Below the pieces are notes generated by a model. The model did not search any database. It was given only the letters and a program-made list of their open reading frames with translations, and was not told the origin of the DNA. Shown here in pieces: positions 5,446 through 26,504 of a stretch of DNA of 32,978 nucleotides. The stretch comes from a bacterium (GTDB taxonomy: Bacteria > Patescibacteriota > Microgenomatia > UBA10105 > UBA927): assembly GCA_021817785.1 (NCBI GenBank), contig JAKAFY010000017.1, positions 1 through 32,978 of the forward strand, read 5' to 3'. The translations under genes were made by a program, and so were the position numbers. How positions within the stretch are numbered: the first letter of the stretch is position 1; each line of letters opens with the position of its first letter.

Positions 5446-5590
5446 GGAAGTATTGTATACCTTTATTTGCTCTATCGAAATATTGCTGGTTTTTTTGCAC
5501 CTGGAGGAAAACGACAGACAGGAGCGAAGCAGGGGGGGCAAGAACACGGCGTTTCCGCTGGTGTACATCGGGTTTTAGGTCGGGGATAGT

Positions 5591-8311: not shown

Positions 8312-8360
8312 CAATTTACAATTTTTTAATTTCGAATGAAAATTGTAAATTGAAAAATGA
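8312..8360. repeat. 7-bp-periodic inverted spacer element (upstream of glmS)
   Basis: CAATTTA|CAATTTT|TTAATTT|CGAATGA|AAATTGT|AAATTGA|AAAATGA; 14-bp perfect arms CAATTTACAATTTT/AAAATTGTAAATTG. Confidence 0.8.
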
Positions 8361-8389
8361 ATATGTATTGATGAAAGAGGGCGGACTCA

Positions 8390-8568
8390 GTTCCGGATGT
8401 GTTCTCTGTCCCGCCTTACGGCAGGATATTTGTATCCGGATTGCGGTAGTGAGTGCTACCGAGGCGTACCCGCAGATGTACCTCGCCGTAATCCCTGTAT
8501 CGGGATGTAGGCGGGTGTATCGATAAACGCCTTCCTCGTATCCCGCCTCCTCGGCGGGCCACACGCTA
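8390..8568 (-). ncRNA. glmS ribozyme (GlcN6P-activated self-cleaving RNA), predicted cleavage between 8567 and 8566
   Basis: Minus strand: A|GCG...CCCGCC-GAGGA-GGCGGG (P2) then TACGAGGAAGGCGTTTATCGA (family core xACGAGGxxGGxGUUUAUCGA), GCGGGTACGCC, GGTAG-cactca-CTACC, TCCGGAT...ATCCGGA (P4-like) enclosing CCTGCC-GTAA-GGCGGGACAGAG. Directly upstream of glmS. Confidence 0.92.
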
Positions 8569-8615
8569 AAAAATGTCCAGTTACCGCGCTCTGTAAATGT
8601 GCCTTTCTATTGCGT

Positions 8616-8645
8616 ATCGTACGCTTCCCGCCGATTCCTTGTCAA
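8616..8645 (-). promoter_or_regulatory. Promoter for glmS: TTGACA-N18-TACGAT on the minus strand
   Basis: Minus strand TTGACA 8645-8640 and TACGAT 8621-8616; predicted start about 40 nt upstream of the ribozyme cleavage site. Confidence 0.6.
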
Positions 8646-8676
8646 GCATGCCCGTTTATGATAAAACCCCAGTGAT

Positions 8677-9333
8677 ATGAACCAGGAACACGAATATATC
8701 GCCGTCATGGGGACATTAGGCAGCGGTAAAACTACCGCCGCACGTCTTCTGTCCCGGGAGCTCAACTTTACGCTCAATGAAGAAACCGTGGAAGAAAACG
8801 CGTTTCTCCCGAGGTTTTACCAGGATATGAAACGGTGGGCGTTTCATTCACAGACATTTTTTCTCATGGAAAAAATCCGACAGATGATCGCCACCAAGTC
8901 TCAGCTCAAAACTACGCCGGTGGTACAGGATACGCCTATAGTCCAGGATGTATTTTCCTACGCGAAAGCCCAGCATGCGCTTGGCAATATGGATGACGCG
9001 GAATGGGCACTATACCGAAAAATTTATGAAGAGTATGCCCCTATGTTTCCGAAGCCGGACCTTATAGTGTTTTTGGATACCTCCATTGCCGAGATAGAAC
9101 GGCGTATCCGTGAACGGGGACGGGGCTTTGAGCAGGACATTCCGACCGAGTATTTGCGTCTATTGGACTCGTTGAACCGCGAATGGTTAGCACAAAACAA
9201 CGATATTCCGGTGATCGTATTTCATTCCGACTCACTGGATATTTCGAGAAACAAAGATGTCCAAGCGCAATTTGTGTCATTGGTTCGAAATGCACTTCAT
9301 CCACCTGCAACCACGGATCCTCTGGCGTCATAG
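8677..9333 (+). CDS. Deoxynucleoside kinase family protein
   Basis: MGTLGSGKTTAARLLSRELNFTLNEETVEENAFLPRFYQD; IVFLDTSIAEIERRIRERGRGFEQ. Confidence 0.88.
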   Translation: MNQEHEYIAVMGTLGSGKTTAARLLSRELNFTLNEETVEENAFLPRFYQDMKRWAFHSQTFFLMEKIRQMIATKSQLKTTPVVQDTPIVQDVFSYAKAQHALGNMDDAEWALYRKIYEEYAPMFPKPDLIVFLDTSIAEIERRIRERGRGFEQDIPTEYLRLLDSLNREWLAQNNDIPVIVFHSDSLDISRNKDVQAQFVSLVRNALHPPATTDPLAS

Positions 9334-9502
9334 CAGATCACGACGTATAACGCTGCCGGACGTATTCAATCATAGGAGAATACCCAACCGCTTTTCCCGT
9401 CTTGAAGGAGACGGCATACGGCCGTACTATTATACAAAGTGCAATAGCAGGATAATACCGGGGTTTCGGCAACGATGAATCTTTGTGCACACACAAACGA
9501 CA

Positions 9503-10159
9503 ATGAATAACCCAAAACTTCATGGCATAAAGGTATTGATATGGGATTTTGACGGGACACTGTATCGGCAACAACCGGCGCTGTGGGATGCAATCCGCGC
9601 ATCGGAAATACGGGTCATCATGAACCATACCGGCTGGACGGAAGAGAAAGCAAAAGAAGCGTTTTATAACATATATAAAGTGACAACTCCGAGCGGCACC
9701 AAAACCGTATCGCAGCTAGCAAACATCACCAACCAGGAGTCATCGACGGAGTCGGCGGTATACGTAGATTACGCGGGATATCTTTTTCCTGATCCCAAGC
9801 TTGCCGCGCTTTTTTCATCGCTTTCATCGTATACGCATTATTTACTGGTAAACGGCACCCAGGCGTCCGTTGCCAAGGGATTGTCGCTTCTTGGCGTGCG
9901 CGCTTCGGTATTTGCCGAAATCGTGACATCCGAACTCATGGGAGACAGCAAGCCCAGCCCCAAAGGATATGAATATATTATGAAACACACCGGTCTGCCT
10001 GCTTCTTCGCATCTCATGATCGGAGACCGCGAACCGGTGGATTTGGCCACCGCCAAAACACTCGGGATGCACACCTGTCTCGTATGGTCGGATACGCCGG
10101 GTGCGATTGCAGAAATTACGGTACCCACCGTGTACGACGTGGCGAATGTGCTAGGATAA
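9503..10159 (+). CDS. HAD-family hydrolase/phosphatase
   Basis: VLIWDFDGTLYRQQ (motif I), VNGTQ (motif II), SKPSPKGYEYIM / MIGDREPVDLATAKTLGM (motifs III/IV). Confidence 0.88.
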   Translation: MNNPKLHGIKVLIWDFDGTLYRQQPALWDAIRASEIRVIMNHTGWTEEKAKEAFYNIYKVTTPSGTKTVSQLANITNQESSTESAVYVDYAGYLFPDPKLAALFSSLSSYTHYLLVNGTQASVAKGLSLLGVRASVFAEIVTSELMGDSKPSPKGYEYIMKHTGLPASSHLMIGDREPVDLATAKTLGMHTCLVWSDTPGAIAEITVPTVYDVANVLG

Positions 10160-10164
10160 AGTAT

Positions 10165-11283
10165 ATGCGGATATATTTTACGGCGGCGACGACAAATAAC
10201 GGTGATTACCTTTCGCAGGAAAAGGCAATCATAGACGAGTTAAAACGCTTGGGCCATACGATTACCTCCGGAGAACAGATCCTCGACCACCGGCTGCTGG
10301 AAAAAGATTCAGCCAAATCCGTAGAGGAAATATTCCAGCGCGAAAAAACGGCTATAGAAGAAGCGGATTGTGTGGTCGCCGAAGTCACCAAGCCAAGTAG
10401 CGGAGTAGGCGGAGAAATCGTGTATGCAATTACGCACCACAAACCGGTGCTTTCCCTGTTTTACAAAGACGCCAAAAACGAACTTTCCGCCATGATTGCC
10501 GGGAACCCTTCCGACCATCTGTTTTTGGAGCACTATGATGAAGAAAGTCTGCCGATTCAGCTCAAAAAATTCATGGCGCAGGTTGCGATAGACAAAGACC
10601 GTAAAGGGAAATTGATTGTGATCGACGGCGGAGACGGATCGGGCAAGACCACACAATCCGCCATGCTGGTATCATATCTGAAGGCGCAGCATATAGCCGT
10701 AAAGGCATTTGACTTTCCCCAGTATTACACATCGTTCCACGGGAAAATTGTGGGCCGGTTTCTGGCGGGGGAATTCGGCAAGCTGGATGAAATATCTCCC
10801 TATCTGGCCTCTCTTGCGTATGCCTTGGACCGCGCTTCCGCCAAAGACGAAATGGACCTATGGCTTGCCCATGGCGGAGTCATCGTGTGCAACCGGTACG
10901 CCACAAGCAATATGGCCCATCAGGGCGCCAGGTTGCCGGAAGACAAGCGTGCGGAATTTCTGGACTGGATCGATGAGCTGGAATACAAAGTACACAAAAT
11001 TCCTCGGGAAGATATCGTCATCTATCTCCATGTCCCATGGCAGTTTGGCATGGAACTCACCAAGAAAAAAGGGGAACGCGGCTATCTGAACGGCAAAGCC
11101 GCGGATATCGCGGAAGCGGATATCACGCACCGCCAGGCATCGGAAGCCATGTACCTGTCGCTTGCCAAAAGACGCAGGAAATGGGTAATCATCGAGTGTG
11201 TAGAAGATGGGAACATGCTTTCCAAGGAAGCCATTCATGAAAAAATCCTTACCGTTCTTCGGGACAAAAAACTCATACGCTAA
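10165..11283 (+). CDS. Fusion: N-terminal Rcl/DNPH1-like nucleoside 2-deoxyribosyltransferase-superfamily domain + C-terminal thymidylate kinase
   Basis: N-term IYFTAATTNN...EEADCVVAEVTKPSSGVGGEIVYAITHHKPVLSLF...LSAMIAGN; C-term LIVIDGGDGSGKTTQSAML...VIVCNRYATSNMAHQGA. Confidence 0.9.
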   Translation: MRIYFTAATTNNGDYLSQEKAIIDELKRLGHTITSGEQILDHRLLEKDSAKSVEEIFQREKTAIEEADCVVAEVTKPSSGVGGEIVYAITHHKPVLSLFYKDAKNELSAMIAGNPSDHLFLEHYDEESLPIQLKKFMAQVAIDKDRKGKLIVIDGGDGSGKTTQSAMLVSYLKAQHIAVKAFDFPQYYTSFHGKIVGRFLAGEFGKLDEISPYLASLAYALDRASAKDEMDLWLAHGGVIVCNRYATSNMAHQGARLPEDKRAEFLDWIDELEYKVHKIPREDIVIYLHVPWQFGMELTKKKGERGYLNGKAADIAEADITHRQASEAMYLSLAKRRRKWVIIECVEDGNMLSKEAIHEKILTVLRDKKLIR

Positions 11284-11886
11284 ATGACTACGCTGTATCT
11301 TATCCGGCACGGACAGTATGATAGTCCTCAACCCGTCGTTCCGTACCGTTTGCCCGGATACCATTTGTCCCAAGAAGGTGTTCAGCAGGCTCGGGCGATA
11401 GCAGAGCGGTTAGCACATGAGCCGATTCATGCGGTGTTTGCGAGCAAACTTGAACGCACCATGGAAACCGCAGTTATTATCGCAGCACCGCACCACCTGA
11501 TTCCAGTGGCTGATGACCGCTTACTGGAGGTCGACTCGCCGGCGCAGGGAAAGACAAAGGAATTTATCGACTCTTTAGGCGGATGGTTTATCTACGATAC
11601 ACGGTGGTATAAGGAGCGCAACGGAGAAACGCTGGACGAAATATTTTCCCGGATATACGGATTTGTAGAAGAGAAGCGGAAAGAATACATGAATCGGTCA
11701 GTTATTGCGGTTACTCATGGGGATCTGGTCATGCTTTTGGCTATGTATTATATGGGTATACCGCGGACGGCTGAATCATTGCGGAACGTTCCCTACGTAT
11801 CTATGGCGTCCGGTTTTCGGATAGATTTATATGCCAAGGATCGCGTACACGTGGCACCTATTGGAGAAACGGAAAGAAATACATGA
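11284..11886 (+). CDS. Histidine phosphatase superfamily protein (copy 1)
   Basis: LIRHGQYDSPQP RHG motif; VTHGDLVM C-terminal His motif. Confidence 0.9.
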   Translation: MTTLYLIRHGQYDSPQPVVPYRLPGYHLSQEGVQQARAIAERLAHEPIHAVFASKLERTMETAVIIAAPHHLIPVADDRLLEVDSPAQGKTKEFIDSLGGWFIYDTRWYKERNGETLDEIFSRIYGFVEEKRKEYMNRSVIAVTHGDLVMLLAMYYMGIPRTAESLRNVPYVSMASGFRIDLYAKDRVHVAPIGETERNT

Positions 11887-12467
11887 CGACTATATATATT
11901 GTCCGGCATGGGGAATACGTAAATCCAAACTATGTATATCCCGGCAGGTTACCCGGGTATCCGTTATCGGAAAACGGAATACAACAGGTGAAAAAACTTG
12001 CTGCGGCGTTACAGAACACACCGATTTCGGCGCTCTACGCAAGTCCGGTTCTTCGAACGATGCAAACGGCAGGTATACTCGCCGAGGTGCTCCATTGTTC
12101 GGTGGTGCCGGACGAACGTCTTATAGAGGTGCACACCCTGCTGGACGGTGCGCCGATGCAGCGCTTTGACGAAACCCGTGGTGAACTATCATTTTTACCG
12201 GATAATCTCGCCCGCGGCGCTGAATCTATGGAAGCGCTTGCCGACCGCATGTATGGGTTTATGGAAGAAAAACGCAAAGAACACGGGGGGAAAGAAATAT
12301 TGATTGTTACTCACGGCGATCCAATGCGGTTTGGAGTCATGAAGTACATGCACACTCCGATTGAATTTGAGGCTAGCCGGACCGTGTCCATCCCTCTGGC
12401 CGGAGGCTATAAAATCGTGTTTGATGAAGCTAACCAGCCTCAAGTTTATCCTATAGTTACTTCTTGA
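11883..12467 (+). CDS. Histidine phosphatase superfamily protein (copy 2, tandem paralog)
   Basis: IVRHGEYVNPNYVYPGRLPGYPLSENG; VTHGDPMRF; overlaps copy 1 by 4 nt (ATGA). Confidence 0.9.
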   Translation: MTTIYIVRHGEYVNPNYVYPGRLPGYPLSENGIQQVKKLAAALQNTPISALYASPVLRTMQTAGILAEVLHCSVVPDERLIEVHTLLDGAPMQRFDETRGELSFLPDNLARGAESMEALADRMYGFMEEKRKEHGGKEILIVTHGDPMRFGVMKYMHTPIEFEASRTVSIPLAGGYKIVFDEANQPQVYPIVTS

Positions 12468-12492
12468 CAGACACCCTCTCCAGTGGTATAAA
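12464..12492 (+). promoter_or_regulatory. Near-consensus promoter TTGACA-N17-TATAAA
   Basis: TTGACA 12464-12469 (overlaps upstream stop codon), 17-nt spacer, TATAAA 12487-12492. Confidence 0.75.
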
Positions 12493-12501
12493 TAATAAAA
12501 G

Positions 12502-12530
12502 CGCTCAAAAGCTTTTTTGAGCGATTTTTT
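12502..12530 (+). terminator. Intrinsic terminator
   Basis: CGCTCAAAA-GCTT-TTTTGAGCG (9-bp perfect stem) followed by ATTTTTT. Confidence 0.9.
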
Positions 12531-12711
12531 ATTTCAGACCTTTGCGAGCATAAGCGAGCTTAGGGCTGAATAATCCGCCAAAGATCGCTCTTTGAGCCGC
12601 ACTACGAATAGTAGCCAAAGCGAAAAGTAAGATCAGGTGGATAAAAATATATCTAAGGGTTTTTTCTCAAGTAACGCCACCCGGCCAAAAGGCTAGGACG
12701 TAGGACACCAA

Positions 12712-13572
12712 ATGAAAAACCAGGAATATCAGCCATATAGCCCCGTATCCCCCCAACGTCCATTGCGCGCAGAAGAACTCCCGATTACGTTCGTTACGTC
12801 GTCCGACGGCCATAATAAAGCGACCGTTTTCGAAACACACCTTCCCGGGTGGAATATCTCACACCGCGAACCATTTTTTAATGAAGTAGCCATCCATGAC
12901 CGTGCGCCGCACACGGAGCATCGTCCGCAGGTCATCGCGGAACACAAAGCCAAAGATGATGTGACCATCGCCCAGGCCATGTCACTCATTGCCGATACGG
13001 TTACCCGAGACGGCACCGTATATACCAACGGCGCCGAAAAGATGATGCTATATACCGATACGGTGCAGATGGTGCACGTAAACGGCAAGGATGACATGGA
13101 TATCGTTATGCTGGAAAAGCCCACAGAAGATCCGGTTACCTGGGCAACCAACTCACCGGAAGCCATGATCCAGTCGGGTAAAGACGTGGAAATCGTCAAC
13201 GCACTGACCGGGATTCGGGTAGGCAAAGACGGTGTAGGGGAACCCAAGACCGTCATGCTCCGTGTGCGGTTTAGTGCCAAACCCTTTACCCGGGAGCAAA
13301 TCATCGCCTATGCCAACACGCCTGGCAATACGATCGCTCAGACATCGGGAGGGCTGTCTGTCGCCAACGGCGCGCGGGAGTTTTATGACATGGATAAGCC
13401 GCTTGTGGTGAGCATGGCAAACAACATGGATGAAATACCGACCGAAATTATGCGTTTCGACACCTGGCACCATCTCACCAAAGCGGACCTCAAGCCATTT
13501 ATCTGCGGCGCTGTCGAGCCGGCGATTGCCCGGGTAGTAGAGAAAACGCGGGAATCTGCGAAGGTGGTATAA
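12712..13572 (+). CDS. Hypothetical protein; weak resemblance to the Maf/HAM1 nucleotide pyrophosphatase fold
   Basis: LIADTVTRDGTVY and VNALTGIRV...VMLRVRFSAKPFTREQIIAYANT are reminiscent of Maf ADTVV... and TxVxFxxLSxxEIxxYV segments; remote similarity by eye only. Confidence 0.5.
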   Translation: MKNQEYQPYSPVSPQRPLRAEELPITFVTSSDGHNKATVFETHLPGWNISHREPFFNEVAIHDRAPHTEHRPQVIAEHKAKDDVTIAQAMSLIADTVTRDGTVYTNGAEKMMLYTDTVQMVHVNGKDDMDIVMLEKPTEDPVTWATNSPEAMIQSGKDVEIVNALTGIRVGKDGVGEPKTVMLRVRFSAKPFTREQIIAYANTPGNTIAQTSGGLSVANGAREFYDMDKPLVVSMANNMDEIPTEIMRFDTWHHLTKADLKPFICGAVEPAIARVVEKTRESAKVV

Positions 13573-13581
13573 TTCTTGGCA

Positions 13582-14886
13582 ATGACAGATACCATGCTTA
13601 CCGACCTGGTTGCCCGCGAAACTTCGCGCCAGGAGGAAACGATCACCCTTATTCCCTCGGAAAACTATACGTCACGTGCCGTGCGTGAGGCATTGGGGTC
13701 GGCGCTTACGAACAAATATTCAGAAGGATACCCGCACAAACGGTATTATCAGGGCAACACCATTATTGATGAGATAGAGGATATCGCCATCGACCGCGCC
13801 AAAAAATTATTTGGCGTGCCCCACGTAAACGTCCAGCCGTATTCCGGTTCTCCAGCCAACGCGGCGGTCTATATGGCACTTCTTTCTCCTGGCGATACGA
13901 TTATGGGATTAAAATTGTCCGGCGGAGGGCACCTCACCCACGGACACCCGGACATTACGTTTTCCGGTACGTTTTTCCGTTCTGTTCAGTATGATGTCTC
14001 TCCGGATGGACGTATAGATACCGAAGACGTCGCAGCATTAGCCCGAAAGGAAAAACCCAAGATTATTGTCGTCGGCACGACGGCGTATCCCCGGATTTTT
14101 GACTGGGAGAAATGGCGCGCGATCGCCGATGACGTCGGGGCGTTTCTTCTGGCGGATATTTCCCATATCGCAGGACTCGTTGTCGGCGGGGCACATCCCT
14201 CTCCGGTGCCGTATGCCGACGTTATCATGACTACCACCCACAAGACGCTTCGCGGACCGCGGGGCGCGATGATTCTCGTGACAGAACGGGGTCTCGCAAA
14301 AGATCCTGCGATGGGCGAAAAGATCGATAAAGCGGTATTTCCTGGGCTTCAGGGTGGGCCGCATGATAATGTGACGGCAGGGATAGCTACAGCGCTTTTT
14401 GAGGCAAGCCAGCCAGAATTTCGCGTATATGCCCAGAACATAGTTTCAAATGCAAAAGTTCTCGCCTCGACGCTGATAGAAGGTGGTTTGACGCTCACGA
14501 CCGGAGGGACGGACAATCATCTGATGGTCGTAGACCTGCGGCCGCAACATGCCATAGGAAATATCGTCGCCGAAGCGTTGGAGCGGGCCAATATCGTGGT
14601 CAACAAAAATAGTGTTCCGCACGATACAAACCCTCCTTTTTATCCCTCTGGTATCCGGATAGGAACGCCGGCCATCACCACCCGAGGGATGGGTGAGAAA
14701 GAAATGAACATCATCGGGAATTGGATCGTTGAGGTGGTCCGCGAGGTATCTCACTATCATTTGCCGGAAACAAAAGAAGGCAGACGGGGATTTTTATCAA
14801 CGGTGAAGAAAGAATTGGAACAGAATGTAAAATTGAAGCAAATAGCTCATGAAGTCGCTGTCCTGTGTCGCCGTTTTCCTCTGTAG
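13582..14886 (+). CDS. glyA: Serine hydroxymethyltransferase
   Basis: ETITLIPSENYTSRAVREALGSALTNKYSEGYPHKRYYQGN; TTTHKTLRGPRGAMIL (PLP Lys). Confidence 0.97.
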   Translation: MTDTMLTDLVARETSRQEETITLIPSENYTSRAVREALGSALTNKYSEGYPHKRYYQGNTIIDEIEDIAIDRAKKLFGVPHVNVQPYSGSPANAAVYMALLSPGDTIMGLKLSGGGHLTHGHPDITFSGTFFRSVQYDVSPDGRIDTEDVAALARKEKPKIIVVGTTAYPRIFDWEKWRAIADDVGAFLLADISHIAGLVVGGAHPSPVPYADVIMTTTHKTLRGPRGAMILVTERGLAKDPAMGEKIDKAVFPGLQGGPHDNVTAGIATALFEASQPEFRVYAQNIVSNAKVLASTLIEGGLTLTTGGTDNHLMVVDLRPQHAIGNIVAEALERANIVVNKNSVPHDTNPPFYPSGIRIGTPAITTRGMGEKEMNIIGNWIVEVVREVSHYHLPETKEGRRGFLSTVKKELEQNVKLKQIAHEVAVLCRRFPL

Positions 14887-15098
14887 CCTCTGGGTGTTAT
14901 TGTAACACCGTCAAACACAACGCCCTCACCTCTAATAACTGCGCTGTTACATCCATGCCTATCACGTAGCGCTGATATTATTTCACCAGGCGTATGTCTG
15001 GCATTACACCGATCTGGCGATGCAAAACAGCATCCTGCATCGCTGCATCCCTGTAGCAGCCGTAGAGCCTGTTCGTACTCGGTATCATTTAGCGGCAT
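14847..15098 (-). CDS. Small hypothetical protein (83 aa), convergent with glyA and overlapping its 3' end
   Basis: ATG-initiated ORF MPLNDTEYEQALRLLQGCSDAGCCFASPDRCNARHTPGEIISAL... with protein-like composition filling an otherwise empty spacer; no homolog recognised. Confidence 0.4.
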   Translation of the reverse strand: MPLNDTEYEQALRLLQGCSDAGCCFASPDRCNARHTPGEIISALRDRHGCNSAVIRGEGVVFDGVTITPRGYRGKRRHRTATS

Positions 15099-15118
15099 AC
15101 GTGCGAATATACTCCATC

Positions 15119-15147
15119 TTGTATGGAGTTTCCAATTTTGGTATACT
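15119..15147 (+). promoter_or_regulatory. Promoter of the rpsB leader: TTGTAT-N17-TATACT
   Basis: TTGTAT 15119-15124, TATACT 15142-15147. Confidence 0.6.
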
Positions 15148-15162
15148 TCGATTTATTCCGCA

Positions 15163-15216
15163 CACTCGAAGAGTATCTCTCCCGAAAAGGGCATCGAGTG
15201 GAAGGTCAAGAGATAC
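15163..15216 (+). ncRNA. Candidate H-type pseudoknot leader RNA upstream of rpsB
   Basis: CACTCGA 15163-15169 / TCGAGTG 15194-15200 interleaved with GTATCTCT 15173-15180 / AGAGATAC 15209-15216, plus inner hairpin CCC-GAAAA-GGG 15181-15191. Confidence 0.55.
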
Positions 15217-15230
15217 AGAACCTAATATAA

Positions 15231-15254
15231 GGCGCTGTATCCAGCGTCTTTTTT
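15231..15254 (+). terminator. Intrinsic terminator/attenuator in rpsB leader
   Basis: GGCGCTG-tatc-CAGCGTC followed by TTTTTT. Confidence 0.75.
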
Positions 15255-15266
15255 AATGGAGAAACT

Positions 15267-15329
15267 TAAATATAAAATCGTAAATCTCTCTAGATTTTCG
15301 TTTTTTAGATTTTAGTTTTACGTTTTTAT
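15267..15329. repeat. 7-bp-periodic inverted spacer element (upstream of rpsB)
   Basis: TAAATAT|AAAATCG|TAAATCT|CTCTAGA|TTTTCGT|TTTTTAG|ATTTTAG|TTTTACG|TTTTTAT. Confidence 0.75.
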
Positions 15330-16149
15330 GCAGGACATAACACTTGAACAATTATTGGAAGCAGGATGTCATTTTGGCCACAAATCGGAACGATGGCACC
15401 CGAAAGCATCCGTATTTATCTGGCAGGAAAAAGACGGCATTCATATCATTGATCTTGCCAAAACCAAAGCCGGGTTGGATGCAGCCATGCAGTTTGTGCG
15501 AGATACGGCAGCCACCGGCGGCACCGTGTTGTTTGTCGGCACCAAGCGTCAGGCACGGGGAGTGGTCAAAGAAGCCGCGCAAAAAGCAGGTGCGTCGTTT
15601 TTGGTCCAGCGGTGGATCGGCGGATTTATGACCAACTGGGAAGGTGTGCATAAAAATCTGCAGAAAATAAACAAAATGATGGCAGATCAGGCAAACGGAG
15701 GTTGGAAAAAGTTCCCCAAGCACGAACAAACTAAGCTCGGGCGGTATCTGGAACGGCTCAATGTCGATTACGAAGGCGTACTTGCTCTTTCCTCGCTCCC
15801 TGATGCCATTGTCGTCGTTGACGTCCGCAAGGAACAGGCAGCGGTTCGGGAAGCCCGACGCATGGGTATTCCGGTCGTTGGGATCGTAGATACCAATGCA
15901 AACCCCGAGAATATCGAATACGTCATTCCGGCAAACGACGACGCGGTGGGTTCTGTCCAGCTGATCGTTTCGGCAGTCGCGGAGGCGTATCGTGAAGGTC
16001 GGGAACAGGCAGCCAAGGATGCCGCAGTAGCCGCCGACAAAGCAGCGAAAGAGGCAGAAAAAGCAGCACAAACCAAAAAAGCAGAAGCCGCTAAAAAAGA
16101 AGCGCCAAAAGATTCAGAGCCGGAAAAGATGACCGTTACGGTCAAATAA
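15328..16149 (+). CDS. rpsB: 30S ribosomal protein uS2
   Basis: LEQLLEAGCHFGHKSERWHPKASVFIW...FVGTKRQARGVV...RWIGGFMTNW; Lys/Ala-rich C-terminal tail. Confidence 0.98.
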   Translation: MQDITLEQLLEAGCHFGHKSERWHPKASVFIWQEKDGIHIIDLAKTKAGLDAAMQFVRDTAATGGTVLFVGTKRQARGVVKEAAQKAGASFLVQRWIGGFMTNWEGVHKNLQKINKMMADQANGGWKKFPKHEQTKLGRYLERLNVDYEGVLALSSLPDAIVVVDVRKEQAAVREARRMGIPVVGIVDTNANPENIEYVIPANDDAVGSVQLIVSAVAEAYREGREQAAKDAAVAADKAAKEAEKAAQTKKAEAAKKEAPKDSEPEKMTVTVK

Positions 16150-16175
16150 GCCGAACGGAGCGAAAGGAGCATACT

Positions 16176-16634: not shown

Positions 16635-16640
16635 CACATG

Positions 16641-16707
16641 TATCACGAGATGCGTTTTCTGTGTCACATATTTACTTGACACCTGACGCCTGATACCTGA
16701 TACTACG
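16641..16707. repeat. 7-bp-periodic spacer element (upstream of frr)
   Basis: TACTTGA|CACCTGA|CGCCTGA|TACCTGA|TACTACG; weaker inverted counterpart on the left (TATCA...TGTGTCA). Confidence 0.7.
16676..16704 (+). promoter_or_regulatory. Promoter TTGACA-N17-GATACT upstream of frr, embedded in a 7-bp repeat array
   Basis: TTGACA 16676-16681; 17-nt spacer; GATACT 16699-16704; ATG at 16715. Confidence 0.5.
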
Positions 16708-16714
16708 TCTAAAG

Positions 16715-17278: not shown

Positions 17279-17348
17279 TCTTCCGTATCCGATCTCATGA
17301 ATATTTGACCCCTTGTCGCATGTTGGGCATTGGTGATTGAATAGTACT

Positions 17349-18449: not shown

Positions 18450-18525
18450 CCATTTCTGCACCTCTTCAGAAGATTCTCTCGCGTTGGTTGACATCATTTA
18501 CTGCGATAGTCTATCGTAGTGGATA

Positions 18526-19398: not shown

Positions 19399-19411
19399 AT
19401 AGGCCGCCTAT

Positions 19412-19440
19412 TTGACAAGGAAAGACGATCGCAGTACACT
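19412..19440 (+). promoter_or_regulatory. Promoter of proS leader: TTGACA-N17-TACACT
   Basis: TTGACA 19412-19417 and TACACT 19435-19440. Confidence 0.65.
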
Positions 19441-19446
19441 CAATCC

Positions 19447-19697
19447 GGTTTCAGAAACGCGTCAGAAACATCCTGCCACCGAACAGGATGATCCTATACA
19501 AAGGAACGCGGCTCCGCCAACAACGGAGACGGGTGCGCCCGTAAGAGCGACAAACAAGAGTTGAAAGTAGAAAGTTCATAACGTTTGTAAAGTATCTTGC
19601 TTTATAAACTTTGAAACTTTATAAACTTTTGACTGAATTAAGGTGGTACCCCCTCCGATATGGAGGGCCTTAAAACAAACGGTACCTTTTTTTGTGG
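19447..19697 (+). promoter_or_regulatory. T-box riboswitch leader of proS
   Basis: Antiterminator TTAAGG-[TGGTACC bulge]-CCCTCC-gatat-GGAGGG-CCTTAA at 19638-19673; downstream GGTACCTTTTTTT can pair with the bulge region as terminator; upstream hairpins CATCCTG/CAGGATG closed by CGCGT/ACGCG. Confidence 0.88.
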
Positions 19698-19729
19698 GAA
19701 AAACGTACACTGATGAAAGGAGCATGCAT

Positions 19730-21415
19730 ATGAAATATTCAACACTTATTGGAAAAACGAGTAGGCAAAAATTGCCCGGGAGCGAAATAACGAGCCATCA
19801 GTTATTGTTGCGTGCCGGATTTATCACGCCGGTTGCTGCAGGGATATATTCGTTTTTGCCCTTGGGGTTTCGGGTGCTCGAAAACATTGACCGCATTATC
19901 AAAGAAGAATTTACCAAGCGTGGTATCCAGCACATCATTATGCCATTTGTTCATCCTGCCAGCCTGTGGAAGGAAACAGGGCGGTTTACAAAATGGGCAA
20001 AAGCACTTGCAGTGTTTGATGCGAAAAGCGGTGGCAAATACTTGCTGGCTCCCACTCACGAGGAGACCGTTACCGATATCGCGCGTAAATTCGTACTGAG
20101 TTATAAAGATATGCCAGTAATCGTCAACCAGAACCAATGGAAGTATCGTGATGAAGTGCGGGTAAACGGTGGGTTATTGCGGACTCGCGAATTTTTGATG
20201 CAGGATGCATATAGTTTTGATAAAGATGAAGAGGGCCTAGCTACAAGTTTTGATACGGTGAGCGAGGCATACCATGCCATATTCGATCGAATCGGATTGC
20301 CCGTCACCGTAGTTAAAGCCGATAGCGGTGCAATTGGTGGGACAGGAAGCGAAGAATTTATGGTCGAATCCGAAGTAGGTGAAGACCGGATATTTGTCTG
20401 TGACCGTGGGGACTACAAAGCCAATGTCGAAAAAGCCGAGTCAGCATTTCCTCAATTTAACCAAATGGGAGAAGAAAAAAAACCTATGCAGGAAGTCCTT
20501 GGCGAAGGCATCATCGGTGTCGAACCGCTCGCGAAATTTTTGAATATTCCCGTGCAGAAAACAACGAAGACGCTTTTGTATCAAGCGGATGATCGCGTGG
20601 TAGCAGTCTGTGTCCGTGGAGAATACTCTGTGAGCGAGATAAAGCTGTCCAACATACTAAAGTGCATGAATCTTGGCCTCGCATCAGCAGACACCGTCAA
20701 GCGGGTGACCGGAGCGGACGTAGGCTACGCCGGACCTGTCGGACTGCCAAAAGACGTTGAAGTCATTTGGGACAAATCAACAGAGGGTCGCGTGAATTTT
20801 GAGTGTGGCGGCAATAAAACGCATTATCATAACATAAACGTCAATTTTGGGGCCGATGTCGCAACGCCGAAGCAGTTTGTGGATGTTCGGGAAGTAAAAT
20901 CCGGAGAAGGATGTCCTAAATGTGACGGCACACTTTCTGAGGCGCATACCATAGAGCTTGGACATGTATTTAAACTTGGCACGATTTATTCCAAAGCAAT
21001 GCACGCCGAATTTATCGATCAGGACGGCAAAAAAAAACCGATTATCATGGGCTGCTACGGCATCGGCATGACGAGGCTTATCGCCGCAGCGGTCGAGGTG
21101 TTTCATGATGAACGCGGCATCATCTGGCCTGAAGCGATCGCTCCGTTTCGCGCACATCTTATCTCATTACCCGGCGGGGAGACTAAAGCAGCTGAAGTCT
21201 ACGATGCGCTTTTGAAAGCAGGGGTCGATGTACTGTGGGATGACCGTGAAGGTTCGGCTGGGGTGAAATTTGCGGATGCTGATCTTATAGGACTACCCTG
21301 GCGGTTTGTCATTTCCAAAAAAACTGAAGGTAAAATTGAAATCAAGAAACGTACTGAGTCAGAGGCAAAATTAGTTTCTGAAACAGAGTTGATGTCTTTA
21401 CTTGCAAACAAATAA
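19730..21415 (+). CDS. proS: Prolyl-tRNA synthetase
   Basis: ATG 19730 after AAAGGAG; SRQKLPGSEITSHQLLLRAGFITPVAAGIYSFLPLGFRVLENI...APTHEETVTDIAR. Confidence 0.96.
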   Translation: MKYSTLIGKTSRQKLPGSEITSHQLLLRAGFITPVAAGIYSFLPLGFRVLENIDRIIKEEFTKRGIQHIIMPFVHPASLWKETGRFTKWAKALAVFDAKSGGKYLLAPTHEETVTDIARKFVLSYKDMPVIVNQNQWKYRDEVRVNGGLLRTREFLMQDAYSFDKDEEGLATSFDTVSEAYHAIFDRIGLPVTVVKADSGAIGGTGSEEFMVESEVGEDRIFVCDRGDYKANVEKAESAFPQFNQMGEEKKPMQEVLGEGIIGVEPLAKFLNIPVQKTTKTLLYQADDRVVAVCVRGEYSVSEIKLSNILKCMNLGLASADTVKRVTGADVGYAGPVGLPKDVEVIWDKSTEGRVNFECGGNKTHYHNINVNFGADVATPKQFVDVREVKSGEGCPKCDGTLSEAHTIELGHVFKLGTIYSKAMHAEFIDQDGKKKPIIMGCYGIGMTRLIAAAVEVFHDERGIIWPEAIAPFRAHLISLPGGETKAAEVYDALLKAGVDVLWDDREGSAGVKFADADLIGLPWRFVISKKTEGKIEIKKRTESEAKLVSETELMSLLANK

Positions 21416-21498
21416 AGATGAATCCGGAAGCTGTGTCGCCTGCGGCAAGCCAGCTATCCATCTCTGGATATTTGCGCAGTCGTATTAGTTAGTAGGGA

Positions 21499-21921
21499 TT
21501 ACGCTGGTGTCCGATTCGATGCTATAGCCTTGCGGAAGCCTATTTTTTGTCTGCGATGCTCTACGAATCCCCGGAGTTGACGAACTTTCCATGCCTGCAT
21601 ATTTTTATCATATTTTTCACGCAGCACGTAACCAGCTTGCTCCAGTGCTGCCATGACCATTGACCCGTAGTATTTCGGATTTAGTTCATGTCTCGGTATA
21701 TTAAATGTATCGCCAACTATATTGCTTAGGTCCCGCATTTTTATCAGATGATGCCAGATGAGCATTGGATTATTCTGTACGGCTTTGACGACGGCATCAA
21801 CTAATTGGCGGCCCGTAATATTTTTCTCCGCCTTTGTTATGAATACACAATCAAGATAATCTCCAGATCCAACAAACTTTTCTTGCGTATATACATATTT
21901 TGATATATTTATTACTGCGAT
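21499..21921 (-). pseudogene. Open frame (minus strand) lacking a start codon in its upstream half; truncated gene remnant or unannotated start
   Basis: Frame open from 21921 to 21499, protein-like (YVYTQEKFVGSGDYLDCVFITKAEKNITGRQLVDAVVKAVQNNPMLIWHHLIKM...), but no ATG/GTG/TTG before the internal ATG at 21765. Confidence 0.4.
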
Positions 21922-21944
21922 TCAAGCAAACATGCCATATCTGG

Positions 21945-21950
21945 TATACT
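21945..21950 (+). promoter_or_regulatory. -10 box TATACT, 6 nt before ATG (leaderless)
   Basis: CTGGTATACT-actttc-ATG (extended -10, TGG). Confidence 0.5.
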
Positions 21951-21956
21951 ACTTTC

Positions 21957-22787
21957 ATGAAAACCATTGTTGTCCACATCGGTCCGGATTTGGATGCCAT
22001 TACGAGTGCGTGGATGGTCAAAACGTTTTGGCCCGGGTGGGAAGAGGCCAGTATCGCCTTTGTGCCGGCCGGCACGACGCTTGGCAAAAAAGATCCTGAT
22101 GCAGATCCCGAGATACTCCACACGGATACGGGATTCGGCAAATATGACCATCACCAGACCGACGCGGATACCTGTGCGGCGATGCTTATTTACGAAGAAA
22201 CAAAGCGGCTTCACGGACCGGATCCGGCACTCGAGCGTATGGTAGCGGTAGTGAATGATGTGGATCATTTCCGCGAAGTGTTTTACCCTAATGCATCAGC
22301 AGATTTTTGGGAGTTTTGGGTGGTCGCCCAGATAGACGGGTGGCGATTAATCTACAGCGATAACCCGTTAAAGATTATGGAACTCGGGTTCCTCACACTG
22401 GATGGCATCTACAAAGTGATGCTCAATAAAATTTGGGCAGAAAAGGAACTTGCCACTGCCAAAGAATTTGCGACAAAATGGGGCAAAGGCGTCGGATTTG
22501 AAACGGTCAACGATGAAGTGATCCACCAGGCCCAAAAGCGTGGATATGCCGTCGTTATCCGGAAAGATCCGAAAAAAGGCTATGTGCGCATCAAAACGCT
22601 TCCGAAAGAGGAAATTGACTTGACCGCATTGTATGAACGTCTAAAAAAAGACGAGCCCGACGCTACCTGGTTTTTGCATGCGTCGCGGCATATGATATTA
22701 AACGGCAGTGCCAAAAATCCGGATATGAAACCATCACGCCGCACACTACAAGAATTAGTCGCAGTTATACAGGAGGTGTGCGCCTAA
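21957..22787 (+). CDS. DHH/MYG1-like phosphoesterase-type protein
   Basis: VVHIGPDLDAITSAWMV... and TGFGKYDHHQTDADTCAAMLIYEE (DHH-type motif), VNDVDHF. Confidence 0.65.
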   Translation: MKTIVVHIGPDLDAITSAWMVKTFWPGWEEASIAFVPAGTTLGKKDPDADPEILHTDTGFGKYDHHQTDADTCAAMLIYEETKRLHGPDPALERMVAVVNDVDHFREVFYPNASADFWEFWVVAQIDGWRLIYSDNPLKIMELGFLTLDGIYKVMLNKIWAEKELATAKEFATKWGKGVGFETVNDEVIHQAQKRGYAVVIRKDPKKGYVRIKTLPKEEIDLTALYERLKKDEPDATWFLHASRHMILNGSAKNPDMKPSRRTLQELVAVIQEVCA

Positions 22788-22788
22788 A

Positions 22789-22858
22789 TTTATAATTTTA
22801 AATTTTTAATTTTCAATAAAAATTAATTGAACATTGTAAATTGAAAAAAGAAAATTAT
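22789..22858. repeat. 7-bp-periodic inverted spacer element (upstream of HIT gene)
   Basis: TTTATAA|TTTTAAA|TTTTTAA|TTTTCAA|TAAAAAT|TAATTGA|ACATTGT|AAATTGA|AAAAAGA|AAATTAT. Confidence 0.78.
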
Positions 22859-23270
22859 GAACGACTGTATCTTTTGTAAAATCATAGCCAACGAAATTCC
22901 GTCCTACACGGTGTACGAAGATGCCGATACCAAAGCGTTTCTGGACATATTTGGCGCGACCGACGGGCATACTATGGTTATTTTAAAAAAACACGGGGAA
23001 ACCATCCATGCCTACGACGCCGAGGAATTGAAAAAATTGTGGTCCACAGTACAAAAAGTTGCGGCAGCAGTGGAAAGAGCATTTGATACCACCATTTTAT
23101 CCATCGGCATAAACCACGGCGAGCCGGCCGGCGTGAAACACCTGCATGTCCATATTATGCCTCGCTTTGAGGGCGACGGAGGTGGTATAATGCAATCACT
23201 TCCGGGGAAGAAATTAACCAATAAGGACTTTTCAGGAGTAGCGGAGAAGATTAAAAGTAAGTTGGAATAG
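22857..23270 (+). CDS. HIT family protein
   Basis: CIFCKIIANEIPSYTVYEDADTKAFLDI; HLHVHIMPR histidine triad. Confidence 0.95.
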   Translation: MNDCIFCKIIANEIPSYTVYEDADTKAFLDIFGATDGHTMVILKKHGETIHAYDAEELKKLWSTVQKVAAAVERAFDTTILSIGINHGEPAGVKHLHVHIMPRFEGDGGGIMQSLPGKKLTNKDFSGVAEKIKSKLE

Positions 23271-23273
23271 AAA

Positions 23274-23382
23274 GTCCGCCAAACCTTACTTTATGCCTTT
23301 TCACTACTATTCGTAGACGGCATAAAGAGCGGTTGAGGGGCGGACCTAAGAACGAGTAATCCACTTTGTGGAAACTCGTTCT
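23274..23382 (+). ncRNA. Candidate structured leader upstream of rpsU (two long hairpins)
   Basis: GTCCGCC/GGCGGAC (7 bp) enclosing CTTTATGCC/GGCATAAAG (9 bp); second hairpin AGAACGAGT..CCAC-TTT-GTGG..ACTCGTTCT. Confidence 0.5.
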
Positions 23383-23407
23383 AAGGAAAGTGAGGTGTTT
23401 TATTTTT

Positions 23408-23608
23408 ATGGTATTTGTTAAAGCACAACCAGGAGACACATCAGACGCACTTATTCGTAAATTCATGCGCAAAGTGCTCAATGAAGGCATTTTGCAGGAT
23501 CTGAAAAAGCGTGAATTTTACGTCAAACCCGCAGAAAAGCGGAAAGAAGCGAAGAAAGAGTTAAAGCGCAGGCTGCGCCGCAATAATCGTCACAGTAACA
23601 GGGGATAA
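23408..23608 (+). CDS. rpsU: 30S ribosomal protein bS21
   Basis: MVFVKAQPGDTSDALIRKFMRKVLNEGILQDLKKREFYVKPAEKRKEAKKELKRRLRR. Confidence 0.88.
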   Translation: MVFVKAQPGDTSDALIRKFMRKVLNEGILQDLKKREFYVKPAEKRKEAKKELKRRLRRNNRHSNRG

Positions 23609-23612
23609 CGTT

Positions 23613-24059
23613 ATGTTACTTACGGATATTCAATCAACAGTCGTCACATCGCTCAAAAAAGGCGATGCCGTATCCGTGGAGACGCTGCGGTTTCTGATCT
23701 CCGCGGTGCGAAATGCCGCGATCAATAAATACGGCGCGGATGCGGAATCCAAGATCACCGACGCGGATGTGCTGGACGTCATCAAAAAACAGGTCAAAAC
23801 GCATAAAGAATCCGTAGACGCATTTGAAAAAGCCGGACGAAGCGAACTTGCCCAAAAAGAAGCGGCTCAGTTGGCCATTTTGGAGGCATATTTACCAAAG
23901 CAGGTATCGGACGACGAACTCAAAACGCTGCTTACTCCCATTGCTGCTGCCGGAGGTGATTTCGGCCCCATGATGGGTAAAGCCATGGCGGCAGTTGGAG
24001 GCAAAGCAGATGGTGCTCGTGTATCGGCAATATTAAAAAGCCTTCTGCCTAAAAGCTAA
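23613..24059 (+). CDS. GatB/YqeY domain protein
   Basis: LRFLISAVRNAAINKYG...EAYLPKQVSDDEL...FGPMMGKAMAAVGGKADGARVSAILKSLL. Confidence 0.92.
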   Translation: MLLTDIQSTVVTSLKKGDAVSVETLRFLISAVRNAAINKYGADAESKITDADVLDVIKKQVKTHKESVDAFEKAGRSELAQKEAAQLAILEAYLPKQVSDDELKTLLTPIAAAGGDFGPMMGKAMAAVGGKADGARVSAILKSLLPKS

Positions 24060-24097
24060 GCTTTTTTCTGCAAAATTGCCCCAGAAAGCTTAGCTTT
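24052..24097 (+). repeat. Long inverted repeat overlapping the yqeY-like stop codon
   Basis: AAAGCTAAGCTTT(TTT)CTG ... CAGAAAGCTTAGCTTT: 16-bp complementary arms with a 3-nt bulge. Confidence 0.8.
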
Positions 24098-24107
24098 GTA
24101 ACTGTCT

Positions 24108-24503
24108 ATGATAACCGTATTATTCCAGACCGAGTCCCACTTTCCTGTTTCCACCGCAAAGATAAAAGATGCCGTAGTATCCTATCTTTCGACCCGTGTA
24201 AAAAGTAAAACCGAAATAAGCATCACCATTATCGGTGACCGGAGGATGCAGGAGCTGAATAACCGGTACAGAAAGATAGATGCGACCACCGACGTGTTGT
24301 CTTTCCCGCAAAACGATCCGTCCCAGCAGATGGCCCCATTCGTAGAGGCTCCGGACGGCGTACTGCGTCTCGGAGATGTGGTGGTATCGTATCCGCAGGC
24401 CGTCGCAGAGGCTACAGACGAAAATAAACTTGTGGATGATAAGGTCGTTGAACTTATCGAACACGGGATCAATCATCTTCTTGGTATTCATCACCCGGAA
24501 TAA
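24108..24503 (+). CDS. ybeY: Endoribonuclease YbeY, short form
   Basis: DATTDVLSFP; LGDVVVSYPQA; HGINHLLGIHH matches HGxxHLLGxxH; ends right after the motif. Confidence 0.88.
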   Translation: MITVLFQTESHFPVSTAKIKDAVVSYLSTRVKSKTEISITIIGDRRMQELNNRYRKIDATTDVLSFPQNDPSQQMAPFVEAPDGVLRLGDVVVSYPQAVAEATDENKLVDDKVVELIEHGINHLLGIHHPE

Positions 24504-24578
24504 ATCGAAGAAGGAAAAGGGAAAATCGAAGATGTAATATAAGTTGATAGCTTTTCGTTTTTCTATTTTCGTTTTAAG
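24502..24578. repeat. 7-bp-periodic inverted spacer element (upstream of dnaX)
   Basis: AAATCGA|AGAAGGA|AAAGGGA|AAATCGA|AGATGTA ... CTTTTCG|TTTTTCT|ATTTTCG|TTTTAAG; arms 49 nt apart, same phase. Confidence 0.75.
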
Positions 24579-24586
24579 ATTGCACT

Positions 24587-26056
24587 ATGTCATTTTACCG
24601 CACCTACCGGCCGCAAGTTATAGAAGATATCGATAATGCCGCAGTACGTACTCATTTACTGGCACTGCTTTCCAAAGACAAAAAAGAATTGCCTCACGCA
24701 TACTTGTTTACCGGACCCAAAGGTGCCGGCAAGACGACGGCTGCACGAGTTATTGCGAAATTGTTTAATTGTGAAAAACCTACGAAAGCCGGCCCGTGCG
24801 GTGCGTGTGATCAGTGCCGATCGATAGCCAATGGCACCAGTCTGGATGTGATAGAGATGGATGCAGCAAGTAACCGCGGCATAGACGAAATACGGCAGCT
24901 TCGGGATCGTATCGGATTGTCGCCGGCATCGGCTCCGTACACGATTTATATCATCGACGAAGTGCATATGCTCACGACCGAAGCATTTAACGCGCTGTTA
25001 AAGACGCTGGAAGAGCCGCCGGCGCATGCGGTATTTGTATTGGCTACTACGGATAGGGAAAAGGTGCCGTCCACGATCCAGTCCCGGTGTATGACAATCA
25101 CGTTCGGAAAAGCATCCGCCGATGAATTGGTACATGCATTGGCTCGGATTGCGAAAGCCGAAAAAATCACTATAGATGACGCAGCCCTTGCCCGTATCGC
25201 GAAATCCGCAGATGGGTCGTTCCGGGATGCCGTCAAATATCTCGAACAGCTGAGTTTTTCAAAGGGAACGATCACCGCGGATATGGTGGGGGAAACGCTT
25301 GCGCTTTCGGACGTGTCGCTTCGCGAGGCATTGCTCTCGCATCTTATCGCCCACGATGTGAAAATGGCGCTCGCGGATATTGAAACAGCGGTTTCATCCG
25401 GGAGTGATATGAAGCTCTTACTTACGGATCTGTTGGGCGATCTGGAACGCAAAATGGTGGCAGTGGCGACCGGGAATACACAGGATGCATGGAACATGCC
25501 GGATATCCGTGGCGCGATACAGAAATTTACCAAAGCGTACACAGAGTTACGGTTGAGTCCTATTGCCCAGTTACCCGTAGAAGTTGCTATTGTGGAATTT
25601 TGTGCGGGCGTCCCTGACGCCGTGTCCGCGGCATCTCCGAAAGAATCCCGGCCGGCTTCTCCCCGTGTGCCGGCCCCCATACCGCAGTCTGCGGCAGTGG
25701 CGGCGCCTCAACCGGCGCATGTTGCTTCGACGCCTGCCGTTACCGTTTCGCCTGTTTTGCCTGTGCCGGATGTTGTTCCGCCTGTTCCGTCGCTGGGATT
25801 GCTTACGTATGAAAAGCTGGTGGAACACTGGCCGGACTTTATTACGGCAACCAAGCCGTATAACCATTCCGTAGCCGGCGTGCTGCGTTCATCTAGACCA
25901 AAGGCTGTGGAAGGTGGTATAGTAACCATCGAAGCGTTTTATAAGTTCCATCAGGAAAAACTTGCGGAAGTCCGCACCAAACAGGTGTTAAGCGAGGTCT
26001 TAAAGAAACTGTTTGGGGAAAAGGTAAAGATAGAGATAGTTTTGGGAAAAAAATAA
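24587..26056 (+). CDS. dnaX: DNA polymerase III subunit gamma/tau
   Basis: HAYLFTGPKGAGKTTAARVIAKLFNC; Cys cluster CGACDQCRSI; DEVHMLTTEAFNALLKTLEEPPAHAVFVLATTD. Confidence 0.97.
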   Translation: MSFYRTYRPQVIEDIDNAAVRTHLLALLSKDKKELPHAYLFTGPKGAGKTTAARVIAKLFNCEKPTKAGPCGACDQCRSIANGTSLDVIEMDAASNRGIDEIRQLRDRIGLSPASAPYTIYIIDEVHMLTTEAFNALLKTLEEPPAHAVFVLATTDREKVPSTIQSRCMTITFGKASADELVHALARIAKAEKITIDDAALARIAKSADGSFRDAVKYLEQLSFSKGTITADMVGETLALSDVSLREALLSHLIAHDVKMALADIETAVSSGSDMKLLLTDLLGDLERKMVAVATGNTQDAWNMPDIRGAIQKFTKAYTELRLSPIAQLPVEVAIVEFCAGVPDAVSAASPKESRPASPRVPAPIPQSAAVAAPQPAHVASTPAVTVSPVLPVPDVVPPVPSLGLLTYEKLVEHWPDFITATKPYNHSVAGVLRSSRPKAVEGGIVTIEAFYKFHQEKLAEVRTKQVLSEVLKKLFGEKVKIEIVLGKK

Positions 26057-26124
26057 AACGTAAAAACGTAAAAGTAAAACGTGTTCGTCACGATACAAAA
26101 GATATTTTCGATTTTCCATATACC
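26055..26124. repeat. 7-bp-periodic inverted spacer element (upstream of ybaB/ebfC)
   Basis: AAAACGT|AAAAACG|TAAAAGT|AAAACGT|GTTCGTC|ACGATAC|AAAAGAT|ATTTTCG|ATTTTCC|ATATACC. Confidence 0.72.
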
Positions 26125-26153
26125 TTTTGACATTGCGACGGAAAGGAGCGTCT

Positions 26154-26420
26154 ATGTTTAATCCATTCAAAGCGTTGGGAGATGTAAATGCCATGCGTCA
26201 GCAGGCGATGCAAATCCAGTCTGCACTCGAAAAAGAAGAATTCGAAGTGGTACAGGGCAACGTGCGGATTTTAATTTCCGGCAATCAGAACGTAAAGGTT
26301 GTAGAAATCGATGGTGTGGCAAATGAAGATGTCCGCCGTGCGTTAAACGACGCGATCAAAAAATCCCAGCAGGCAGCGGCCATGAAACTGGCCGAGCTTT
26401 CGAAGAATTTTCAACAGTAG
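26154..26420 (+). CDS. YbaB/EbfC family nucleoid-associated protein
   Basis: MFNPFKALGDVNAMRQQAMQIQSALEKEEFE...NVKVVEIDG...RRALNDAIKKSQQ. Confidence 0.85.
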   Translation: MFNPFKALGDVNAMRQQAMQIQSALEKEEFEVVQGNVRILISGNQNVKVVEIDGVANEDVRRALNDAIKKSQQAAAMKLAELSKNFQQ

Positions 26421-26427
26421 TTTCAAA

Positions 26428-26504
26428 TATCGAGCATCGAGAAACGAGAGCCGAGAAATACACATCCCGATACTCGATTCTCGATACTCGCGGCTTTGTG
26501 TATG
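26428..26504. repeat. 7-bp-periodic inverted spacer element (upstream of PfkB gene)
   Basis: TATCGAG|CATCGAG|AAACGAG|AGCCGAG|AAATACA|CATCCCG|ATACTCG|ATTCTCG|ATACTCG|CGGCTTT|GTGTATG. Confidence 0.82.

Follow-up and report, generated by a model that had tools for sequence, protein, structure and literature searches.

Degenerate heptanucleotide arrays, often in inverted pairs, in spacers and genes of a Microgenomatia bacterium and other genomes

Results

Heptamer periodicity in the window and across genomes

Seven intergenic spacers in a 32,978-nt stretch of a Microgenomatia genome (contig JAKAFY010000017.1 of assembly GCA_021817785.1, Patescibacteriota; hereafter, the window) consist of consecutive 7-nt units that vary around a local word and, in most of these spacers, are accompanied by inverted copies. 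Degenerate heptanucleotide arrays of the same kind were found elsewhere in this genome, in other members of the Candidate Phyla Radiation (CPR), in non-CPR bacteria, and, in frame, within conserved genes. These observations point to a process of DNA copying or insertion that moves seven bases at a time, and not to a regulatory switch. The best-supported reading, which we put at about an even chance, is that the arrays, often arranged as inverted pairs, are by-products of a DNA-copying process that advances in 7-nt steps, with secondary dispersal.

The window is contig C10 of a 1.28-Mb draft genome comprising 38 contigs, of which 1.02 Mb was read. The comparison included six congeners (G001–G006, syntenic stretches of 15 kb each), 14 further members of the class (20-kb samples), a class member available on a single contig (G042, 786 kb read), and a congener of the latter (G060, 400 kb read). 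Spacers were defined by a hexamer-scored gene caller, yielding 616 spacers in the studied genome, 433 in G042, and 220 in G060.

For each of the seven window intervals, the self-match was calculated at lags 3–15 and compared with 2000 dinucleotide shuffles, and inverted repeats (IR) were scored without gaps. The highest self-match was observed at lag 7 in all seven intervals (0.46–0.67, p = 0.0005–0.004), and the probability that any lag from 3 to 15 reaches the same value was between 0.0005 and 0.044, which bears out the initial annotation of these spacers as runs of consecutive 7-mers. Its description of inverted arms in most elements is likewise supported, as the IR score was significant (p ≤ 0.017) in five of the seven intervals, the exceptions being 16641–16707 (p = 0.24) and 26055–26124 (p = 0.63). 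Predicted RNA folding was stronger than that of shuffles for six elements (z between −2.2 and −3.3), while the element at 26055–26124 (z = 0.1) forms the weakest hairpin of the seven.

The preference for lag 7 is not restricted to the window. The spacers of the studied genome contain 18 strong self-matching segments at lag 7, where shuffles give 0.3; lags 8 and 9 follow with 9 and 4 segments, and lags 5, 6, 10, 11, and 12 have none. A large share of spacers bears heptamer arrays in both G042 (94 strong lag-7 segments vs. 0.7 in shuffles, with harmonics at lags 14 and 21) and G060 (110 segments at lag 7, 103 at lag 14, 64 at lag 21, and none at lags 4–6). The class sample yielded 14 strong segments at lag 7 and at most one at each other lag from 4 to 13. 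In non-CPR contigs (Chloroflexi, Deltaproteobacteria, Clostridia, Omnitrophota, and others), the noncoding DNA surrounding dnaX yielded 16 segments at lag 7 and 8 at lag 9, with three or fewer at any other lag below 14. The comparison set in advance, namely lag 7 against shuffles and against lags 5–10 genome-wide, was thus decided in favor of the heptamer period. An origin by chance, or from low-complexity A+T-rich sequence, is suggested by the base composition of several words; it is refuted by the shuffle counts, and words that contain G and C (CGAG, TGATACC, GCTATCC) behave alike. The phenomenon is nonetheless not universal, since only one lag-7 segment was found in 183 kb of Bacillota DNA (11 records).

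The mean lag-7 match over all spacers of the studied genome was rejected as a genome-wide indicator, as its rise is very small (0.265 vs. 0.259) and does not exceed that at lags 8 and 9; therefore, the signal is confined to a minority of spacers. Arrays in this genome are concentrated in noncoding DNA (190 per Mb of spacers vs. 16.5 per Mb of coding sequence). With heptanucleotide simple sequence repeats they share the preference for a tandem unit of exactly 7 nt over other lengths and the mostly noncoding location, with real coding cases, but not the near-identity of units or the restriction of a genome to one or a few fixed words. Apart from this, lags 8, 16, and 17 show weaker excesses in the spacers of the studied genome, as do lags 10 and 20 in G042; heptamers do not account for them.

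Unit drift and inverted partners

The units within an array become less similar with distance. Over seven steps, similarity drops from 0.83 to 0.57 in the studied genome, and the corresponding decrease is from 0.75 to 0.35 in G042, where a part of it may stem from arrays spanning both arms or several composites, and from 0.77 to 0.37 in the remaining genomes. Similarity stays flat in a star simulation, in which units diverge independently from one fixed word and are collected by the same detector. As distance decay is not produced by the fixed-word model, it favors neighbor-to-neighbor copying with a 7-nt step plus fold-back. Approximately 15–22% of bases deviate from the array consensus. Identical variants tend to stand in adjacent blocks, e.g., five copies of TTAGCTG followed by four of TTAATTG, or seven copies of GCTATCC followed by three of GCTAAAT, and the array at C37:15811 drifts from ACCTGTT to ACTCGCT. 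A model with a fixed core and variable positions, in which a protein reads four or five constant bases of each unit, was rejected as a general rule because invariant unit positions are no more frequent than in a neutral simulation (ratio 0.94 vs. 0.92–0.95; 1.03 in the studied genome). Distance decay, blocks of variants, and the lack of an excess of fixed positions fit copying from neighbor to neighbor, not selection for a fixed word.

Inverted partners were assessed by matching the reverse complement of each array to its flanks. The match exceeded those in all 20 shuffled flanks, for which the chance expectation is 5%, in 6 of 37 arrays of the studied genome, 36 of 108 in G042, 10 of 28 in other CPR genomes, and 11 of 19 in non-CPR contigs. 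The inverted arms are therefore real, being above chance in every group. Clear non-CPR pairs are located at L047 4588–4631 and L056 8880–8914, each with a downstream partner.

These data bear on ordinary replication slippage, which would add one heptamer at a time and leave inverted arms to chance or later rearrangement. Perfect arrays such as the sevenfold GCTATCC and the grouping of variants in blocks are in line with such slippage, as is the over-representation of heptamers among simple repeats of many bacteria (Mrazek 2007, as cited in PMC4679880 and PMC4692102). However, inverted partners lie far above shuffles, and single 7-nt steps shift the reading frame, yet arrays occur in frame in lepA, argS, and the gene for initiation factor IF-2 (see below). 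We consider this explanation improbable.

Gain and turnover at orthologous junctions

At four window junctions (before the HIT-family gene, before pfkB, dnaX/ybaB, and tsf/frr), the arrays are missing from congeners. The junction before the HIT-family gene is occupied by a 69-nt heptamer hairpin here, by a −4 ATGA overlap in four congeners, and by a 7-nt spacer in one. In G003 (locus L173), approximately 1 kb with an apparent extra gene, seen in this congener only, lies between the orthologs of gene 21900–22787 and of the HIT-family gene. The ybaB/pfkB spacer measures 81 nt here and −1 to 16 nt in five of the six congeners, the sixth having 100 nt of other sequence. The dnaX/ybaB spacer of G006 contains a different hairpin, of the CATTGCGA type, and the tsf/frr array (16641–16707) is missing in all six congeners. 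The ybeY/dnaX element is partly shared: its right half (approximately 24538–24578) is also found in G006, which lacks the left inverted half. A spacer that measures 4 nt in one member of the G042/G060 pair is matched by 187 nt of heptamer DNA in the other member. These comparisons mark the arrays as lineage-specific gains. Orthologous membrane proteins of G042 (455406–456971) and G060 (285294–287033) carry arrays in one and the same loop, with related but different units and different lengths, which amounts to word turnover in place.

A selected regulatory structure at transcript ends or in leaders, either a hairpin or a protein that recognizes the 7-nt geometry, is suggested by the six window elements that fold better than shuffles, one of them in the glmS leader beside a ribozyme. 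The frequency of arrays per spacer base is, however, about equal in co-directional, divergent, and convergent spacers of G042 and G060; the counts for the studied genome (17 co-directional, 2 divergent, and 1 convergent) are too small to tell a preference. Given that the arrays show no bias among the spacer classes of G042 and G060 and are not conserved at orthologous sites, a role as leader or terminator was rejected. In addition, arrays occur inside coding regions, invariant unit positions show no excess over neutral simulation, and the element at 26055–26124 does not fold. A regulatory structure thus appears highly improbable. Between the two explanations offered in the initial annotation, slippage or template switching fits better (distance decay, variant blocks, absence in congeners, and no spacer-class preference in G042 and G060), while a selected hairpin or binding geometry gained no positive evidence.

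Arrays inside genes

None of the window arrays lies in a coding region, as originally stated; this does not extend to the rest of the genome, where arrays were found in lepA, the IF-2 gene, and argS. LepA of the studied genome is 672 aa long compared with 611–635 aa in five congeners, which lack both of its heptamer insertions. The first is a 20-aa (60-nt) insertion before YILNLIDTPG. The second is a CGAG/CTCG heptamer hairpin, whose site is 18 aa longer than in G006 and 8 aa longer than in the other congeners; this is an in-frame palindromic insertion in a conserved gene, missing from orthologs, in the manner of Rickettsia palindromic elements. A third LepA insertion is an in-frame hairpin of the GTCATTGCGAG type, a second dispersed kind named for its initial sequence (locus L042, equal to C20:20001–40000, with lepA at 4377–6395). 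The GTCATTGCGAG-type hairpin also fills the tsf/frr and dnaX/ybaB spacers of G006 (L168), and 10 occurrences of the string GTCATTGCGAG were counted in the 1.02 Mb of the studied genome.

In IF-2, an array of four TTTGACT units encodes EVKSQKSKVK, and 11 residues at this place are absent from Escherichia coli IF-2. ArgS contains a strongly folding heptamer hairpin near its C terminus and is approximately 12 aa longer at this site than the archaeal arginyl-tRNA synthetase 2zue. At a TTTTGAC array, a P-type ATPase of G042 is 7 residues (21 nt) longer than that of G060. Since seven is not a multiple of three, growth by single units within genes would pass through frameshifts, and multi-unit events are therefore more likely. 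A short array in an M16 peptidase gene was considered as a case of local templating by native gene sequence; the homologs align without a gap there, so it is not an insertion, and the idea of local templating was dropped.

Dispersal and the origin of arrays

According to the proposed copying process, the end of a growing strand would repeatedly realign about 7 nt back and recopy the newest unit with errors, and the strand would at times fold back to copy the array the other way round. The 30–80 nt made in this manner would be kept where harmless, for the most part in spacers and sometimes as in-frame additions to protein loops; the arrays would then decay and be re-expanded, and in some genomes they would spread further as composite repeats. 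Realignment with fold-back, the formation of an array in one event, and the absence of function are what we infer from the patterns described above.

Several points weigh against this reading. Words recur across loci (80 pairs at a distance of at most one base vs. 34 ± 5 for letter-shuffled words), so that the initial description of words as unrelated between loci holds only in part: each genome uses many words, and these fall into recurring families. Two of the families, an A+T-rich one (contigs C10, C21, C25, and C29) and the CGAG/CTCG one, show alignments of 60–79 nt that extend through both arms, a pattern suggestive of dispersal. Second copies of at least 50 nt were found for 70 of 96 array loci in G042 and 79 of 90 in G060 (24 of 150 and 11 of 67 in controls), and because of this dispersal the arrays of these two genomes are not independent events.

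The A+T-rich element at 22789–22858 has relatives on C21, C25, and C29 (73–81% over 62–79 nt). Members of the CGAG/CTCG family are located in the ybaB/pfkB spacer, argS, lepA, and a DUF2298 gene, the aligned ones being those in the pfkB spacer, argS, and the DUF2298 gene; the element at 26428–26504 and the one inside argS agree at 75% over 69 nt. A consensus and ends common to the dispersed copies are not evident in the studied genome, where the copies agree at approximately 73–81% over the arms only. Clear dispersed composites are present in G042 and G060, whose spacers contain long chains, aligned over as much as 408 nt, of several heptamer words in constant order at dozens of loci. Some word families include copies within genes, so some dispersal is likely.

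The main rival to a copying process is therefore a set of small non-autonomous palindromic mobile elements, similar to Rickettsia palindromic elements, repetitive extragenic palindromes (REP), or miniature inverted-repeat transposable elements (MITE), with incidental heptamer arms, copied in trans by a transposase or a similar enzyme into spacers and in frame into genes. It would explain the distribution of one word family over a spacer and three genes, the alignment of both arms between copies, the strong dispersal in G042 and G060, and the insertion of the second, GTCATTGCGAG-type hairpin in LepA. Y1_Tnp transposase domains were found in five of six genomes (5 in the studied genome, 4 in G042, and 3 in G060), the array-rich G053 being the one with no match. 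On the other hand, the elements showed no tag or end sequence in common, different families and genomes use different words, and a DNA search with the ybaB/pfkB CGAG element gave no match in 23 other family members. Target-site duplications are not visible, the flanks in LepA and in spacers being too diverged to show them. Finally, MITE and REP models predict neither a fixed 7-nt period across unrelated words nor the decay of unit similarity. Mobile elements are accordingly a possible but rather unlikely source. A broader version of the copying process, which we offer as a speculation with the probability clearly against it, is that an error-prone activity of DNA synthesis or repair, as yet undescribed and advancing by a fixed 7 nt, is common to Patescibacteria and several other phyla; a single event of this activity would yield a drifting array and its fold-back copy, joined into a break, and the activity would serve as a general source of spacer DNA and in-frame protein loops in reduced genomes.

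Individual elements of the window

The gene order of the window includes rpsB-tsf-frr and ybeY-dnaX-ybaB. The heptamer hairpin in the 5' leader of glmS (8312–8360; lag 7 0.67, p = 0.0005; IR p = 0.003) has a 15-bp stem (8312–8326/8338–8352; fold z = −3.25). It lies between the glmS ribozyme/riboswitch (RF00234, 55 bits; 8382–8578, minus strand), which precedes the glmS gene (6481–8286), and the glmS start codon (8286, minus strand), and it offers a place where an effect on expression could be tested. The array upstream of rpsB (15267–15329; lag 7 0.54, p = 0.001) has an imperfect inverted partner (IR p = 0.010; fold z = −2.8). Also upstream of rpsB, at approximately 15165–15225, a conserved structured-looking stretch (GAGTATCTCTCCC...GGTCAAGAGATAC) precedes a terminator-like hairpin and is found at the same place in six congeners; it gave no Rfam match at the gathering threshold.

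The tsf/frr spacer array (16641–16707; lag 7 0.47, p = 0.0015) is formed by TGACACC/TGATACC units with a weak left inverted half. An A+T-rich heptamer hairpin (22789–22858; lag 7 0.62, p = 0.0015; IR p = 0.013) separates gene 21900–22787 from the HIT-family gene. A heptamer hairpin (24502–24578; lag 7 0.59, p = 0.0005; IR p = 0.017; z = −3.25) also separates ybeY from dnaX. In the spacer before ybeY (24054–24107), a further inverted repeat (AAAGCTAAGCTTTTTTCTG ... CAGAAAGCTTAGCTTT) stands by itself, with no heptamer array. The dnaX/ybaB array (26055–26124; lag 7 0.46, p = 0.004) begins with AAAACGT units and continues as a degenerate pyrimidine half, and the ybaB/pfkB spacer carries the CGAG/CTCG hairpin (26428–26504; lag 7 0.54, p = 0.0005; IR p = 0.003).

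Comparison with known heptamer systems

The reason for the over-representation of seven-base repeats in bacteria has been a question since heptanucleotide simple repeats were first noticed. The many words of G042 and G060, their inverted copies, and a copying gradient that can be measured allow the generating process to be studied from sequence, and the in-frame copies in LepA, IF-2, and ArgS show that conserved proteins of small genomes are remodeled by such DNA as well. Rickettsia palindromic elements are palindromic insertions in the spacers and, in frame, in the genes of a reduced genome, and form families with consensus sequences. The arrays described here resemble them in this twofold location; Rickettsia palindromic elements are not known to have heptamer arms.

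Heptanucleotide short tandemly repeated repetitive (STRR) sequences of cyanobacteria, initially named as the nearest precedent, are related in kind, and the GGGAATC repeats of Xanthomonas, with 70–75 inverted convergent pairs per genome and stem-loop potential, are also close (PMC4692102). The function of the Xanthomonas repeats and of the Nostoc GGGGA(C/T)T repeats is unknown, and their length and sequence vary between related species (PMC4692102). They share with the arrays studied here the 7-nt unit, the strong noncoding bias, the variation between relatives, and, in the case of Xanthomonas, the inverted pairs. In contrast, each of those genomes uses one fixed G-rich word with G-quadruplex potential, whereas here there are many drifting words, mostly without G runs, as well as in-frame copies in conserved genes. 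Contact length of the polymerase has been suggested as the reason for the 7-nt unit (PMC4692102, citing Mrazek 2007).

Direct TAACTGA repeats have been described in marine Beggiatoaceae, cyanobacteria, and Bacteroidetes; these are likewise intergenic, with a 7-nt unit, and adjoin start codons of unrelated genes including those of ribosomal proteins (PMC4679880). They consist of direct copies of one word (one indirect repeat is noted), with related heptamers rarely repeated, in contrast to the many words and inverted arms observed here. Among long simple sequence repeats, a unit length of seven is over-represented, for which polymerase slippage has been suggested (Mrazek 2007, as cited in PMC4679880). 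As cited there, such repeats are runs of a fixed unit, whereas the units of most arrays considered here differ by 1–3 bases; such degenerate arrays would probably escape exact-repeat searches. No description of such arrays in CPR genomes was found in searches of the open-licence literature. Heptamer repeats, including inverted pairs, are thus already known; the present arrays stand apart in that their units are degenerate and drift, a single genome uses many words, the density reached in CPR genomes is very high, and copies lie in frame within conserved genes.

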